From a virus, in the IMG/VR virus record IMGVR_UViG_3300025424_000012, positions 1 through 56,242 of that record: 56,242 bases of DNA; one strand, 5' to 3'. The position numbers and the translations under genes are program-made. Each line of letters starts with the position of its first letter. Within the stretch, counting starts at the first letter, position 1. Below are positions 5,584 through 11,001 of this stretch, piece by piece. The notes beneath the pieces are model-generated. The model did not search any database and had not been told where the DNA came from. It saw only the letters and a list, made by a program, of their open reading frames with translations.

Positions 5584-6203
5584 TTAATCCTCCTAAATTC
5601 AACAACCCAAACCCAAGGGTTTGCATCCCATGAACCGGCGCCGTTGATGGATTCCCATAGCTCTGCATACTCAAATCGAGCAAAGTCGTTAGGAGCCCAA
5701 TTGCGCGGATGTTTCCCTGAAAACTGGCTCGGACTAACTTTGCCCGTGATGCGCAATAGCGGGGTGCCAGAATGGCTGCACGGGATGCGGACGCCCTCAG
5801 CAAACGCATCGGCCCCGCTGATGTCCTGCAGGCGCTCGACGCGCACGCCGGGAATCTCCAGCGTGATGCGGCTGGCCCAGCGTGGCATGAATATGCCGGG
5901 GCGCAGCTTGCCAGCATTGAAGTGGGGCAGAGAACCGGCACCGTCTGCTTGGTAAACAATCGGCGAGCCGACTGGAATTTCACGGGGCGGCGTCAGTTCG
6001 TAGGCCAGCGACGAGCGCCACGCCTCCCGCACCCAAAGCTGATCGCCGGGCTGACCGTAGGGGCACTTTGTTTGTCCCGGCACATAGGCCACACGCACGC
6101 CCGGTGGCGGCTGATCGCGCCATGCCCGCCGCGTATGCGTCTTGCTGTCATCCAGCAAAGCCCGCACCATCGGGCCGTTGTAAAGAATGGGCCGGGACTT
6201 CAT
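5580..6203 (-). CDS. ASCH-like phage protein
   Basis: Encodes 207 residues from the ATG at 6203, preceded by AAGGA about 8 bases upstream and overlapping the methyltransferase stop by ATGA. The start MKSRPILYNGPMVRALLDD followed by SKTHTRRA is the usual opening of phage ASCH-superfamily proteins (K-T-x-T-R-R motif). GDQLWVREAW and WVWVVEFRRI are further family marks. ASCH proteins are thought to bind RNA or modified bases. Its place right after a DNA methyltransferase gene fits a role around modified nucleic acid, but that is inference. Confidence 0.7.
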   Translation of the reverse strand: MKSRPILYNGPMVRALLDDSKTHTRRAWRDQPPPGVRVAYVPGQTKCPYGQPGDQLWVREAWRSSLAYELTPPREIPVGSPIVYQADGAGSLPHFNAGKLRPGIFMPRWASRITLEIPGVRVERLQDISGADAFAEGVRIPCSHSGTPLLRITGKVSPSQFSGKHPRNWAPNDFARFEYAELWESINGAGSWDANPWVWVVEFRRIK

Positions 6204-8080
6204 GCTGCCATCCTTTCCGCAAACTGCTCGCTGTAATTGGCAGCCACATAGGCGCGGGCCATCGGGGGACACACAGAATTTCCGACCATACGCACTTGGG
6301 CAGTTTTGGTCAGCGCGCGCCCGTCTCCGCCTCGCTCAATCTGGTACGTATCTGGAAAACCTTGTGCCCGGTAGAGCTCGCGTGGCGTGAGCATGCGCAG
6401 GCCAATGTCCACAATCGCGTAGTCCTGGCCCTTGATAGTGACCAAGCCAAAGCGGTCCTTGGTCGTGATGGTGTGCAGCGGCTCTCGTAGCTGCGGGTCT
6501 TGGTCGGTGCCGTAGTATTTCACCAAGAAGGCGCGGACCTCGGCATGGTGGGTGCCCTGGGCACTGATGGTTGCCAGGGGTGAGTCTGTGGGCTGGCCCA
6601 CGTTGTCGCCGCGCAGCTTGATAAGGTTGCTGGTGACAACTGCAGCCGGCATGCCGTTGGCGGTAACCGTGTTGAGCGGTTGCGCAACATCCCGGATGCC
6701 ATGGCTGAATCGCTTGGTGCCATCTTTGCCTTCGCCGTGGCCCATGTGCACCAGATGCGCCGCCACCATCGCGTGCCGGTTCTCGGTCACGGTTGTTTTC
6801 AGCGGTGCCGTGGCCGGGCTGTGGCCACCCTGGCTGCTCTGGTTGTCGATGGTGACCATGTGGGCAGTGATCAGCCCGTGCCGGTTCTCGGTGGTCTGTG
6901 TCTTGACAGGATCGCGCACGTCGCTGGCGCGCACATCAGATGGCCTCTTGTCCGAGTGGTAGTGCACCAATGCGGCAGTCACCAAGCTGTTGTGATCCAC
7001 GCTTGTGACGGTTGCCAGCGGGTCAGCCATGTCACTTCCCACCACGCCGCCGTAGTGCTTGGCAATGAACGCCGTTACCAGGGCATGCTTTTCCGTGCCA
7101 ACCAGGGTGCCAATGGGCTTTTCCAATCCGGGCACGCGCGGTGCCTGGCCTTGGCGCTCTCCGTAGCCGGTCTGGATAAGCGTCGGTACAACCAGGGCGC
7201 GGTGATTCTCGACCGTAACCGTGCCAAATGGCTTTGTCGTTGGCGCTGGCTTGCCTGCATAGATGGGCCCACCTTGGCCCACGATAAACGGATCGGCCGC
7301 ATCGACCACATACCGCATGATGCCCTTGGCAATGCGCCTGCATGTGGCCTCGGCCAATGGCTTTGAGCGCTCAAAAATACTCGGGGCCGGGATGCTCCAG
7401 TCGATGCATTCCGCAGCCGTGCGCCACGGCTTCAGCTTCTTTTGTTTGACCGGCAGGCTGGCCGGCGCGCCGTGGGTCTGCTCGGGAAACACGATGGGCA
7501 AGCCGTCGCAGCGGGCCACCAGAAACAGACGTTTGCGAATGGTCGGGGTTCCGAAGTCGCTTGCCCGGTCTTCACGAAAATCGACCTTGTAGCCCAAGTT
7601 TTCCAGTGATTTTTTCCAGCGCTGAAAGGTGCGTCCTTTGCGCTGCGGGCATGGCCGGTCATCTGCACCCAGCGGGCCCCAGGTCTGGAATTCTTCGACG
7701 TTCTCCAGAAAGATGACGCGCGGCCGCACCAGCTTGGCCCACTTGACCACGACCCAAGCCAGCCCGCGAATCTTCTTGCTGACCGGCTTGCCGCCCTTGG
7801 CCTTACTGAAATGCTTGCAGTCCGGTGATGCCCAAAGCATCCCCACAGGCCTGCCTTCGACCACGGTAACGGGGTCAACTTCAAACACGTCCGAGACGTA
7901 ATGCAGGGTCTGGGGATGGTTGGCTTGATGAAGCGCCACGGCCTCGGGGTCATGGTTGATGGCAATGTCGACATGGCGGCCAATGGCCTGCTCGATTCCG
8001 GTTGAAGCGCCGCCACCGCCCGCGAACAGGTCAATTACGAGCTCATGGGCCAGGGGCAGGATGTACTGTGGTTTAAGCAT
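6200..8080 (-). CDS. C5-cytosine DNA methyltransferase with repeated target-recognition region
   Basis: Encodes 626 residues from the ATG at 8080 (GGAG 5 bases upstream). It methylates cytosine in DNA. Motif I is DLFAGGGGAS (17-26), the catalytic cysteine is C88 in ASPDCKHFSKAKGG, ENVEEF (126-131) is motif VI, RKRLFLVARC (182-191) is motif VIII and GNSVCPPMA (600-608) is motif X. The catalytic loop reads SPDC instead of the usual PPC. Between 283 and 560 lie about eight repeats of the form PLxTVT-xxxRHxLVTAxLV. The gene overlaps the reverse-transcriptase stop by 8 bases. It probably protects phage DNA from host restriction, possibly at several sites. Confidence 0.9.
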   Translation of the reverse strand: MLKPQYILPLAHELVIDLFAGGGGASTGIEQAIGRHVDIAINHDPEAVALHQANHPQTLHYVSDVFEVDPVTVVEGRPVGMLWASPDCKHFSKAKGGKPVSKKIRGLAWVVVKWAKLVRPRVIFLENVEEFQTWGPLGADDRPCPQRKGRTFQRWKKSLENLGYKVDFREDRASDFGTPTIRKRLFLVARCDGLPIVFPEQTHGAPASLPVKQKKLKPWRTAAECIDWSIPAPSIFERSKPLAEATCRRIAKGIMRYVVDAADPFIVGQGGPIYAGKPAPTTKPFGTVTVENHRALVVPTLIQTGYGERQGQAPRVPGLEKPIGTLVGTEKHALVTAFIAKHYGGVVGSDMADPLATVTSVDHNSLVTAALVHYHSDKRPSDVRASDVRDPVKTQTTENRHGLITAHMVTIDNQSSQGGHSPATAPLKTTVTENRHAMVAAHLVHMGHGEGKDGTKRFSHGIRDVAQPLNTVTANGMPAAVVTSNLIKLRGDNVGQPTDSPLATISAQGTHHAEVRAFLVKYYGTDQDPQLREPLHTITTKDRFGLVTIKGQDYAIVDIGLRMLTPRELYRAQGFPDTYQIERGGDGRALTKTAQVRMVGNSVCPPMARAYVAANYSEQFAERMAA

Positions 8081-9452
8081 TGGTTCTCCGAAAACTCTTG
8101 GTGAAGTGAAAATCAACGGCATGACCGCGCTGGCGCATGGCCTGAGCAAGCCTCGCGCGGTCGTTGTGGCTGTGGCTGGATTGGCGAAGAAGCCCGAAAT
8201 AGCTGTTCCCGGCCTCAAAAGTGTCGTCATCACCCAAGGTGTGAATCCGGGATATAGCGCTGTTGACCGTCCGAGCTCTTGTGGTCCGCCGCCATGGCTT
8301 GACCACAAAACCAACGAAGTCCACGCCACGTTCCACCGGCTGGATGATGGTTTTTCGGTCATTCAGACGCGCACCAAGCCGCTCGGGCAAGAACTCCCGG
8401 ATCCTGCGGTGTGCATCGCCGAGCCACGCCGACGACTCATGCAGGATCACAAAATCATCGACATACCGGACGTAATGTCGCGCGCCGATCTGGTGCTTGC
8501 AAAATTGGTCCAAGGCGTCCAGGTGGACATTGGCGAAGAATTGCGAGCTCAGGTTGCCAATGGGTAACCCGGTATTGGCCGGCGAGCAAAGCAGCCTCTT
8601 GTGGGCTGGCACGCGGCCCATGAGCGCAGGATCGCCGCGGTATTGATACGACTGGCGCGGGTCATGGAACAAGATGGTCCTGGCCAACTCCAACCAGAAG
8701 GGTTCGTGCACTTTGGCCGCGAGCTGGGCAAACAGAATGTGCTTGTCGATCGCCACAAAGAAATTGGCAAGATCGAGTTTCAGATACCACGCAGGCCGGG
8801 CCCAGTTCTGGGTGATGGACCGGATACCGCTTTCCAAGCGTTTGGCGGCGTACAGCGTGCCCCTGCCGGGTATGCAAGCGCTGCTGCCGGCCACAAAGCC
8901 AGCATGGAAGCGCGGGGCTATCTGGTTGTACAGACGGTGATGAACAATCCGATCACGAAATTCGGCAGCCCAGACCTCGCGGTGCTTTGGCCTGGTGATG
9001 ACAAAGCAGATGGATGGACCTGGGCGGTATTGGCCGGAAGAAAGCTCTTCGAACAGCTCGCACAGGTTGCGCTCCAGGGCTTGCTCGAAAGCAAGTGCAC
9101 TGGAAGTGTTGCGCTTAGTCTGGCGGCAGTCCAAATAGGCCTGCAATAGCTGATCGAATGAGACTGACGATGAATCTGCTGACGGCGCGAGCCAGGGCCT
9201 CGTAGGACTTGTTGTTGTTGTTCTGGTTGCCGTTGTTGAAGTTCTGATTCCAGGCGTTGTTCTCGGAGTACTGCGTCGATTCGCGCCATCCACGTCGCCA
9301 CGCCGAAGGCCTGAGCCGATCAGTTTGGAAACTGCACCGGACCGGGTCTGCGCTTGGGCAGCGGTATCCGTGATGTGCATGTCCGTGGCCTTGTGAGCCA
9401 GGGGCGCGACCAGATTCAAATTTCGCACGGGCATGATGACCTTGACCGTCAT
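8073..9452 (-). CDS. DGR reverse transcriptase
   Basis: Encodes 459 residues from the ATG at 9452 (ATGA overlap with avd). It copies the template RNA into cDNA with errors at adenines. Family marks are RPKHREVWAAEFRDRIVHH (154-172), KLDLANFF (225-232), LPIGNLSSQFFANVHLDALD (296-315) and the catalytic YVDD (330-333). The (L/Q)P-x-G-N-x-x-S-Q form is typical of DGR enzymes. Core homology begins near residue 98 (SFDQLLQAYLDC). Residues about 60-93 are the TR read in another frame, giving a Thr/Arg/Pro-rich stretch. I see no good start codon after the TR; an ATG at 9434 with AAGG before it is an alternative start. Confidence 0.93.
   Translation of the reverse strand: MTVKVIMPVRNLNLVAPLAHKATDMHITDTAAQAQTRSGAVSKLIGSGLRRGDVDGANRRSTPRTTPGIRTSTTATRTTTTSPTRPWLAPSADSSSVSFDQLLQAYLDCRQTKRNTSSALAFEQALERNLCELFEELSSGQYRPGPSICFVITRPKHREVWAAEFRDRIVHHRLYNQIAPRFHAGFVAGSSACIPGRGTLYAAKRLESGIRSITQNWARPAWYLKLDLANFFVAIDKHILFAQLAAKVHEPFWLELARTILFHDPRQSYQYRGDPALMGRVPAHKRLLCSPANTGLPIGNLSSQFFANVHLDALDQFCKHQIGARHYVRYVDDFVILHESSAWLGDAHRRIREFLPERLGARLNDRKTIIQPVERGVDFVGFVVKPWRRTTRARTVNSAISRIHTLGDDDTFEAGNSYFGLLRQSSHSHNDRARLAQAMRQRGHAVDFHFTKSFRRTNA
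9173..9276 (-). repeat. TR: DGR template repeat (TR)
   Basis: A 104-bp donor repeat, read on the minus strand. It matches 9853-9956 over 104 positions and 10403-10500 over its upstream 98. The variable part holds 11 AAY codons (AAC-AAC, AAT, AAC, AAC-AAC, AAC and four AAC), so in the VR frame it encodes Asn at all 11 diversified positions. The last about 40 bases (KSYEALARAV in the VR frame) are conserved and should act as the initiation-of-homology end. It lies between avd and the reverse-transcriptase core, inside the latter's 5' reading frame. Confidence 0.95.
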
Positions 9453-9811
9453 GCTGCAGGCGACAAACGAGCCGATTTAAGCCAGCCGCCGGCTTGCTTG
9501 CCAATGCTCTCGGTAAGCTGGATTGCTCCAGCCCAGAGCTTGGGCGACACAAAGCGCTTGTCATGGCTCAGGCGAAGCAACAGGGTTACGACTTCAAGGC
9601 GCTCGACCAACGCGATGATGTGCGGAGCCCTGCCCATACCCCGCGCCGCATTGGCGCGCCCGATCAGGACAAGGATTTCCACGCATTCCGTGTGAATCTT
9701 GCTGCCCAAGCTGGCCTTGAAGGCGCGCGGCATGTTCTGCTGCACGTCAGCTGCCAGACTCAAAAGGTCATAGCCCTGTTTGTAAATCGGGAGTTGGGTA
9801 TGGAGTGCCAT
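9449..9811 (-). CDS. avd: Avd-like DGR accessory protein
   Basis: Encodes 120 residues, basic and helical. The composition and the sequence IYKQGYDLLSLAADVQQN, KIHTECVEILVLIGRANAA and ALVERLEVVTLLLRLSHD fit the four-helix-bundle Avd family. Avd assembles as a ring that binds the reverse transcriptase and template RNA. Size and position (target, avd, TR, RT) match known DGRs such as that of Bordetella phage BPP-1. No strong Shine-Dalgarno sequence is visible before the ATG at 9811, so translation may depend on the upstream target gene, whose stop is 31 bases away. Confidence 0.85.
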   Translation of the reverse strand: MALHTQLPIYKQGYDLLSLAADVQQNMPRAFKASLGSKIHTECVEILVLIGRANAARGMGRAPHIIALVERLEVVTLLLRLSHDKRFVSPKLWAGAIQLTESIGKQAGGWLKSARLSPAA

Positions 9812-9842: not shown

Positions 9843-10346
9843 TTAAAGCGGAAATCTGCTGACGGCGCGAGCCAGGGCCTCGTAGGACTTGCGGCGGTCG
9901 TCCTGGGTGCCGTCGGTGAAGTCCTGACTCCAGGCGCTGCCCTCGGAGCACTGCGTACCCGTCCAATGCCACTCGCTCGTATCCAGCTTGTCCTGCAGAT
10001 TTGCGTAAAGAAGCGCTGATTCAAACCGCGTTGGCAGGCGGGCACCGTTGCCCAAAGATTCGGCCCACTTGACGGCAGCAGCCCACGCCTGCTTTTTTTC
10101 GGGTACAGCATTGAGCAGCACCAGGTGGCCGTCCGGCTCGCCATCCAGACCACGGGAAAGACCGGCATACACGCCATCCAAACCGGGCCACGGCTCGCCG
10201 ATCTTGGGGAACACGCCGACCTCGGGCGCGGTTCCAGCCGGCGGCTCATCGTCCGGAATGGACTTGACCATCAGACCTTCGATAAAGGCCTTGACGATGG
10301 CTGACGGGCCGTCTTGAATGTGAATGTTCACGGTGTTGATACGCAT
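9843..10346 (-). CDS. DGR target protein 1, DUF1566-like with variable C-terminus
   Basis: Encodes 167 residues from the ATG at 10346 (GGAG 7 bases upstream). The C-terminal half (LPTRFESALLYANL then EWHWTGTQCSEGSAW) fits a DUF1566/C-type-lectin-like fold, the usual DGR display scaffold. The VR covers about residues 131-165. The eleven template Asn positions are G136, S137, S140, D142, T144, D145, T147, D149, D150, R151 and R152, and Y133 is changed to Cys. The N-terminal 50 residues are a separate small domain (MRINTVNIHIQDG). There is no signal peptide. The binding target is unknown. Confidence 0.9.
   Translation of the reverse strand: MRINTVNIHIQDGPSAIVKAFIEGLMVKSIPDDEPPAGTAPEVGVFPKIGEPWPGLDGVYAGLSRGLDGEPDGHLVLLNAVPEKKQAWAAAVKWAESLGNGARLPTRFESALLYANLQDKLDTSEWHWTGTQCSEGSAWSQDFTDGTQDDRRKSYEALARAVSRFPL
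9853..9956 (-). repeat. VR1: DGR variable repeat 1 (VR1)
   Basis: Aligned base by base to the TR over 104 positions with no gaps, VR1 differs at 15 positions and every one is a template adenine on the coding strand. The 3' end of the repeat runs nearly to the stop codon of target 1. Changes are mostly A to G, with four A to C and no A to T. Confidence 0.95.
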
Positions 10347-10380
10347 GGTTTGCTCCAGTTGAAATAAAGGATTAAAGGGC

Positions 10381-11001
10381 TCAAGCACTGAGTTGAATCA
10401 GCCTGACGGCGCGAGCCAGGGCCTCGTAGGACTTGAGGCTGTAGCCCTGGTAGCCGTGGCCGAAGAACTGATACCAGGCGTAGCCCTCGGAGTACTGCGT
10501 GCTTGACCAATACCAGCGCTGCTCGAAAGCCTCCGGGCCATCTTCACGGAAAACATCTGCCGTGGTCTGGATCGGGCTTTGCTCGGTGTATGGATAGCCG
10601 GCAGGGATGCTGCTGGGGTTGTCGCCGTCGCGGAAGCTGGCGGAGTTTTCATCCGTGCCAGGCTTCAGGTTGCGGTAGGCCAGCTCGAGCACGTCGCGGG
10701 CAGGAATGCACCAATCCTTGTGGCCATTGATTTCCAGCCCCAGGGCCCACTTTGCCAGCGGGCTGCCGGCTTCGGCCATGGCAACGGTGTTGTCCATGCT
10801 GTGAAAGCAGCTGGCGGCGTTGGGTACGTCGGTATAGCTGGGCAGCCAAATGGATTTCTTCTCGCCCAAAGCCTTGGGCGCCCAGACAATGGCGAACTTC
10901 TTCGTGCCCCCGTGGCTGTTGATGGTGCCGCCGTAGAACCCACCTTCAAAGGCGGTAGCGAATTGGGCTGGGACGAGGATGGATGGTTTGTTTTGGTTCA
11001 T
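10381..11001 (-). CDS. DGR target protein 2, DUF1566-like with variable C-terminus
   Basis: Encodes 206 residues, GGAG 6 bases before the ATG at 11001. It shows the DUF1566/C-type-lectin pattern: DWCIPARDVLELAYRNLKP (about 96-114), YPYTEQSPIQTTADVF (136-151) and WYWSSTQYSEGYAW (163-176). The VR spans about residues 168-200. Diversified positions are 173, 174, 177, 179, 181, 182, 184 and 186-189, now enriched in Tyr, Gly and Phe, as is common in selected binding surfaces. There is no signal peptide or membrane segment. It is the first gene of the DGR cluster; what it binds is unknown. Confidence 0.92.
   Translation of the reverse strand: MNQNKPSILVPAQFATAFEGGFYGGTINSHGGTKKFAIVWAPKALGEKKSIWLPSYTDVPNAASCFHSMDNTVAMAEAGSPLAKWALGLEINGHKDWCIPARDVLELAYRNLKPGTDENSASFRDGDNPSSIPAGYPYTEQSPIQTTADVFREDGPEAFEQRWYWSSTQYSEGYAWYQFFGHGYQGYSLKSYEALARAVRLIQLSA
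10403..10500 (-). repeat. VR2: DGR variable repeat 2 (VR2)
   Basis: A 98-bp ungapped match to TR positions 9179-9276 with 16 differences, all at template adenines, and including changes to G, C and T on the coding strand. The right limit (ACGCAG on the coding strand) is the same as in TR and VR1. The left limit is 6 bases shorter than the TR/VR1 match. Confidence 0.95.

Follow-up and report, generated by a model that had tools for sequence, protein, structure and literature searches.

A diversity-generating retroelement whose template probably also codes for the reverse transcriptase in a second frame, with the start codon placed inside the structured RNA RT-15

The comparative evidence supports a diversity-generating retroelement (DGR) in which the template (TR) codes for the reverse transcriptase (RT) in a second reading frame and in which the RT start codon is located inside a structured RNA. 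The window, by which is meant the whole stretch of 56,242 nucleotides that was analysed (IMG/VR record IMGVR_UViG_3300025424_000012), would contain a single mRNA segment that serves as the RT-15 fold, as the homing template and as the 5' coding part of the RT gene, with translation restarting at an ATGA overlap in coupling to avd. The probability of this combined reading is estimated at roughly 0.85.

The minus-strand cassette is, judged by its sequence, a diversity-generating retroelement composed of two targets, avd, RT-15, TR and RT (Table 1). The TR and VR2 have 15 mismatches over 104 bp and the TR and VR1 have 16 over 98 bp, and all of them (15/15 and 16/16) are found at TR adenines. A DGR-type RT lies next to the TR, and Avd is present. 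Residues 76-448 of the RT match PHROG 1423 Reverse transcriptase, and the alignment with the best solved relative, the BPP-1 bRT chain 8ub7_A, begins at RT residue 98 (E 1.3e-41). The avd product also matches the NCBIfam Avd model, with a score under the cut-off of that model. VR2 equals the TR up to 9173, while the TR and VR1 differ at 10 of 11 bases, positions other than A included, where their homology ends on the 3' side (10392-10402 against 9178-9168), so the two targets differ in the endpoint of their TR homology. The methylase ORF has its ATG (8080-8078) in overlap with the 3'-terminal codons of the RT gene; a DNA cytosine methylase is also found downstream of the RT in Shewanella phage vB_Sb_QDWS.

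Table 1. Coordinates of the DGR and of the adjoining methylase ORF in the window
Feature	Position	Strand	Remarks
C-5 cytosine DNA methylase ORF	6200..8080	-	PF00145, E 1.8e-33
RT CDS	8073..9452	-	459 codons, ATG 9452, TAA 8075-8073; RVT_1
TR	9173..9276	-	104 bp
N-terminal extension of RT, residues 1-94	9173..9452	-	predicted disordered
RT-15 structured RNA (RF03018)	9274..9465	-	covers avd 3' end and RT start, adjoins TR
P1, first stem-loop of RT-15	9431..9454	-	5' arm holds RT start codon and avd stop
avd	9449..9811	-	bAvd Pfam PF22296 above gathering score; PHROG 3206
RT start codon	9450..9452	-	ATGA overlap with avd stop 9451-9449
VR2	9853..9956	-	inside target gene 9843-10388
VR1	10403..10500	-	inside target gene 10381-11001, weak Lcl_C match

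The preliminary description of this DNA had proposed that the RT frame runs from the ATG at 9452, in ATGA overlap with avd, through the TR to the RT core, and this was borne out by the open reading frame. In keeping with that description, no ATG or GTG is present between the TR and the core, and the AAC codons of the TR become ACA or ACG (Thr) in the RT frame. The sole in-frame alternative start is a TTG at residue 103, within the first RT helix. The frame crosses RT-15 as well, an element absent from that description; RT-15 encodes residues 1-58 and the TR residues 59-94. In the TR the RT frame is one base after the target frame. No strong Shine-Dalgarno sequence precedes the ATG at 9452. A single open TR sequence proves nothing, because TR codons avoid stops and all three frames can look open.

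Relatives were gathered by RT homology, by an RT-15 DNA word and by RNA family. The window's clade in the RT tree is monophyletic with 46 tips (support 0.914), and 44 sequences were analysed, L008 and L174 being unscored there. Between the start codon and the core the RT frame had no stops in any of the 44, while the other two frames contained 165 and 71 stops and were open in 0 and 5 of the sequences, respectively. The ATGA was retained in 43 of the 44. L008 has an open frame with a variant motif. L174 has a lone nonsense codon in the TR part of the RT frame, a change of TGG to TAG relative to L191, and constitutes a natural test of the need for an upstream start. Over all tips, which include both phages and prophages, the frame is intact in 45 of 46, L174 being the exception.

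The start-to-core length in the clade takes 12 values, with at least 19 length changes on the tree, all of them multiples of 3. As the ATG was itself located by the frame, this count is circular if taken alone, and anchors independent of the frame were used instead. With these anchors the leader length in the open group was found to change at least 11 times and the TR-to-core length in the whole family at least 13 times, always by multiples of 3; had lengths changed at random, the probability would be about (1/3)^11 and (1/3)^13, respectively. The absence of stops from 45 of the 46 clade members, a check that the preliminary description had proposed, together with length changes in multiples of 3, makes translation of the RT from 9452 through the TR the most likely interpretation of these sequences.

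In many members a GTG or TTG is present where the first RT helix begins, and the deposited annotation of QDWS begins within the RT core. The RT might on these grounds start at the end of the TR or beyond it, with an internal or non-ATG codon, and base composition together with conservation of the RNA would then account for the open frame upstream; in the BPP-1 clade the RT does have its own ATG, and the upstream frame is in many cases open although it is not needed. Such a start would truncate the first RT helix, and 10 of the 46 members of the window's clade have no ATG, GTG or TTG within 30 nt of the start of the core. Length changes that occur in frame only also speak against it, as does the Pseudomonas-phage clade treated below, which shows the outcome without the constraint, and a start of this kind is considered very unlikely.

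A start at the second ATG within RT-15 (9380-9378, MHITDT in the window) would still lead through the TR. It has an AAGG 8 nt upstream, and in L012 it is in frame and the frame is open. Burkholderia phage Magia is annotated with this start in its deposited record, and its frame is closed at points further upstream. In several members of the window's clade, however, K, R, I or T stands in place of this Met, and the first Met with its ATGA is the one kept in 43 of 44; the second ATG is thus an unlikely start for the RT.

The RT-15 match (9465-9274) covers the full length of the model with 172.1 bits against a gathering threshold of 82. The RT-n motifs reportedly originate from work by Weinberg in 2017. 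In the alignment of the window's clade 92% of the cells in the Rfam pairs were paired, and 37 of the 56 pairs had changed on both sides. The corresponding values were at most 38% and at most 17 pairs when partners were slid, while shuffling gave a mean of 82% and no more than 27 pairs. The covariation indicates that RT-15 is selected as RNA in the same sequences that keep the frame. The RT AUG occupies RT-15 positions 14-16 and lies wholly within P1, alongside the avd stop; among 41 relatives, its three positions form pairs in 35, 41 and 41. When the avd-TR segment of the window was folded globally, the structure was no more stable than those of shuffled sequences (z = +1.39), and this was not counted as evidence. 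Conserved words in the RT frame, for example NLVAPL, would fit with RT-15 being a conserved coding sequence that is here taken for an RNA. This is extremely improbable, since the pairs covary within the clade of the window and since the Pseudomonas-phage clade retains RT-15 although its leader codes in no frame.

The Pseudomonas-phage sister clade (L012-L097) retains RT-15 without the RT leader frame. Its leader length has changed at least 15 times, with all residues modulo 3 represented, and the leader contains stops in every frame. Of the 77 members, 68 have stops in the leader frame and 54 have them in the 5' part of the TR, whereas both counts are 0 of 46 in the window's clade. In all 63 upstream-closed members the TR contains an ATG ATG in the RT frame, the only universal start, and the RT of this clade apparently starts there and not upstream. 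No Shine-Dalgarno sequence is evident at the ATG ATG. Because this clade has RT-15 without the frame, conservation of RT-15 does not alone hold the frame open, and the comparison points to upstream translation as the likely cause of the open frame in the window's clade.

A held-out set was obtained by running the RT-15 model on 399 genomes of the order and 399 genomes of the family of one host genome. This gave 15 loci with an RT, 14 of them besides the already known L017 genome, and a wider search at class level gave nothing beyond the genome already known. The TR phase was the same in 14 of the 15 loci found by RNA. Phase was lost only in L279, where an alternative start exists in the form of its own ATG just before the core. 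In Haboob-type phages (L015 and L016) an ATG likewise lies just before the core, yet the phase is retained.

Substitution was flat over the three codon positions in the leader (0.215/0.214/0.245) and in the TR (0.189/0.206/0.190), while the linker and core together had the usual excess at the third position (0.173/0.198/0.379). The flat pattern means that the leader and the TR carry no signal of protein-level conservation. With AlphaFold2 run on 41 family members, residues 1-93 had a pLDDT under 50 (blocks 26-32), and the RT was folded from about residue 99, mostly with a pLDDT above 90. The preliminary description had suggested that the template RNA doubles as coding sequence and that both roles are thereby constrained. 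This agrees with the frame and its lack of stops; it does not visibly extend to the peptide, given the flat codon-position substitution and the predicted disorder. It thus appears that the frame is selected and the encoded peptide is not. On the simplest interpretation the tail is tolerated rather than used; it is probably disordered and has no sequence-specific role. In the TR a dual constraint from the RNA and the target could hide selection at the protein level.

In the proposed mechanism the segment would fold into RT-15 as RNA, would as TR be copied into the target genes by reverse transcription with errors at adenines, and would encode RT residues 1-94 as mRNA. The anatomy of the overlap suggests that ribosomes ending avd would melt P1 of RT-15 and begin anew at the AUG that overlaps the avd stop; the restarted ribosomes would then traverse RT-15 and the TR into the RT. 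As there is no other good start ahead of the RT core, selection would keep the frame open. It is conceivable, if rather doubtful, that RT-15 also acts as a switch. Ribosomes leaving avd would then melt P1 so that RT is made, and bound Avd-RT would keep RT-15 folded, which would stop RT synthesis and turn the transcript from mRNA into template. A single RNA molecule would in that case choose between encoding the enzyme and being the substrate of the enzyme.

If the main reading is correct, a DGR template is read in two frames, one for the target protein and one for the RT, beside a structured RNA, which raises the question of how one transcript can be both translated and reverse-transcribed. 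RT starts annotated downstream in the RT-15 DGR family would probably be wrong, and constructs for RT expression or for editing of the TR in this family would have to respect the second reading frame. The spacer-based model of BPP-1 may not transfer to the family.

The element resembles the DGR of Bordetella phage BPP-1 (mtd-avd-TR-brt) in the order of target, avd, TR and RT on one strand, in the adenine-specific differences between TR and VR, in the presence of Avd and in an RT homologous to bRT. It differs from BPP-1 in lacking a separate RT start downstream of the TR and in having the structured RNA RT-15 upstream of the TR. A spacer of 144 nt separates the TR from the brt ATG in BPP-1, while in the window the first bRT-aligned residue follows the TR after only about 12 nt. 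The spacer (Sp) of BPP-1 recruits bRT-Avd and primes the cDNA (PMC12875486). A non-coding spacer of the BPP-1 type, of about 140 nt, is absent here, with the TR ending at 9173 and the RT core beginning at about 9161. A search by synonymous diversity for an Sp hidden within the RT gene revealed no stretch of clear suppression in the window's clade, where the diversity at the 5' end of the gene is close to the gene average. With no room for a spacer and ordinary synonymous diversity at the 5' end, the spacer role may fall to RT-15 or to an undetected element. In the Pseudomonas-phage clade the RT gene has scattered dips in synonymous diversity, which may reflect mosaic ancestry.

The BPP-1 clade (L204, which is NC_005357, and L205-L271) was scored at all 45 loci with a scorable TR-to-ATG distance, since a count restricted to open loci would be circular. 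At 30 of the 45 the brt frame stays open upstream of the annotated ATG, across Sp and TR, and at many loci it is also open through avd in another frame, over 600-900 nt. The phase of the target frame agrees with that of the RT-15 family at 30 of the 45 tabulated loci. At least 7 of 19 length changes over the 45 loci alter the residue modulo 3, and M1 is conserved. As the length changes are not strictly in threes, the open frame in this clade may be a by-product, and no firm claim is extended to it.

In Rfam RT-15 is typed as gene/sRNA; here it contains the start codon of the RT and is apparently coding in one clade. A search of part of the key literature gave no paper in which translation through the TR is examined or debated, and an earlier mention of the overlap is possible. 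Overlap of the TR with the RT ORF was recorded in 2012 as an annotation class, DiGReF group 3 (BMC Genomics, PMC3521204), and the window has the same arrangement, with the TR inside the 5' end of the RT ORF. The DiGReF group was described without a test of frame conservation and without an RNA element, and its authors took the TR and RT RNAs as separate (PMC3521204). The overlap of TR and RT ORF was thus already known, while the evidence for selection on the frame and the overlap with a structured RNA appear to be new.
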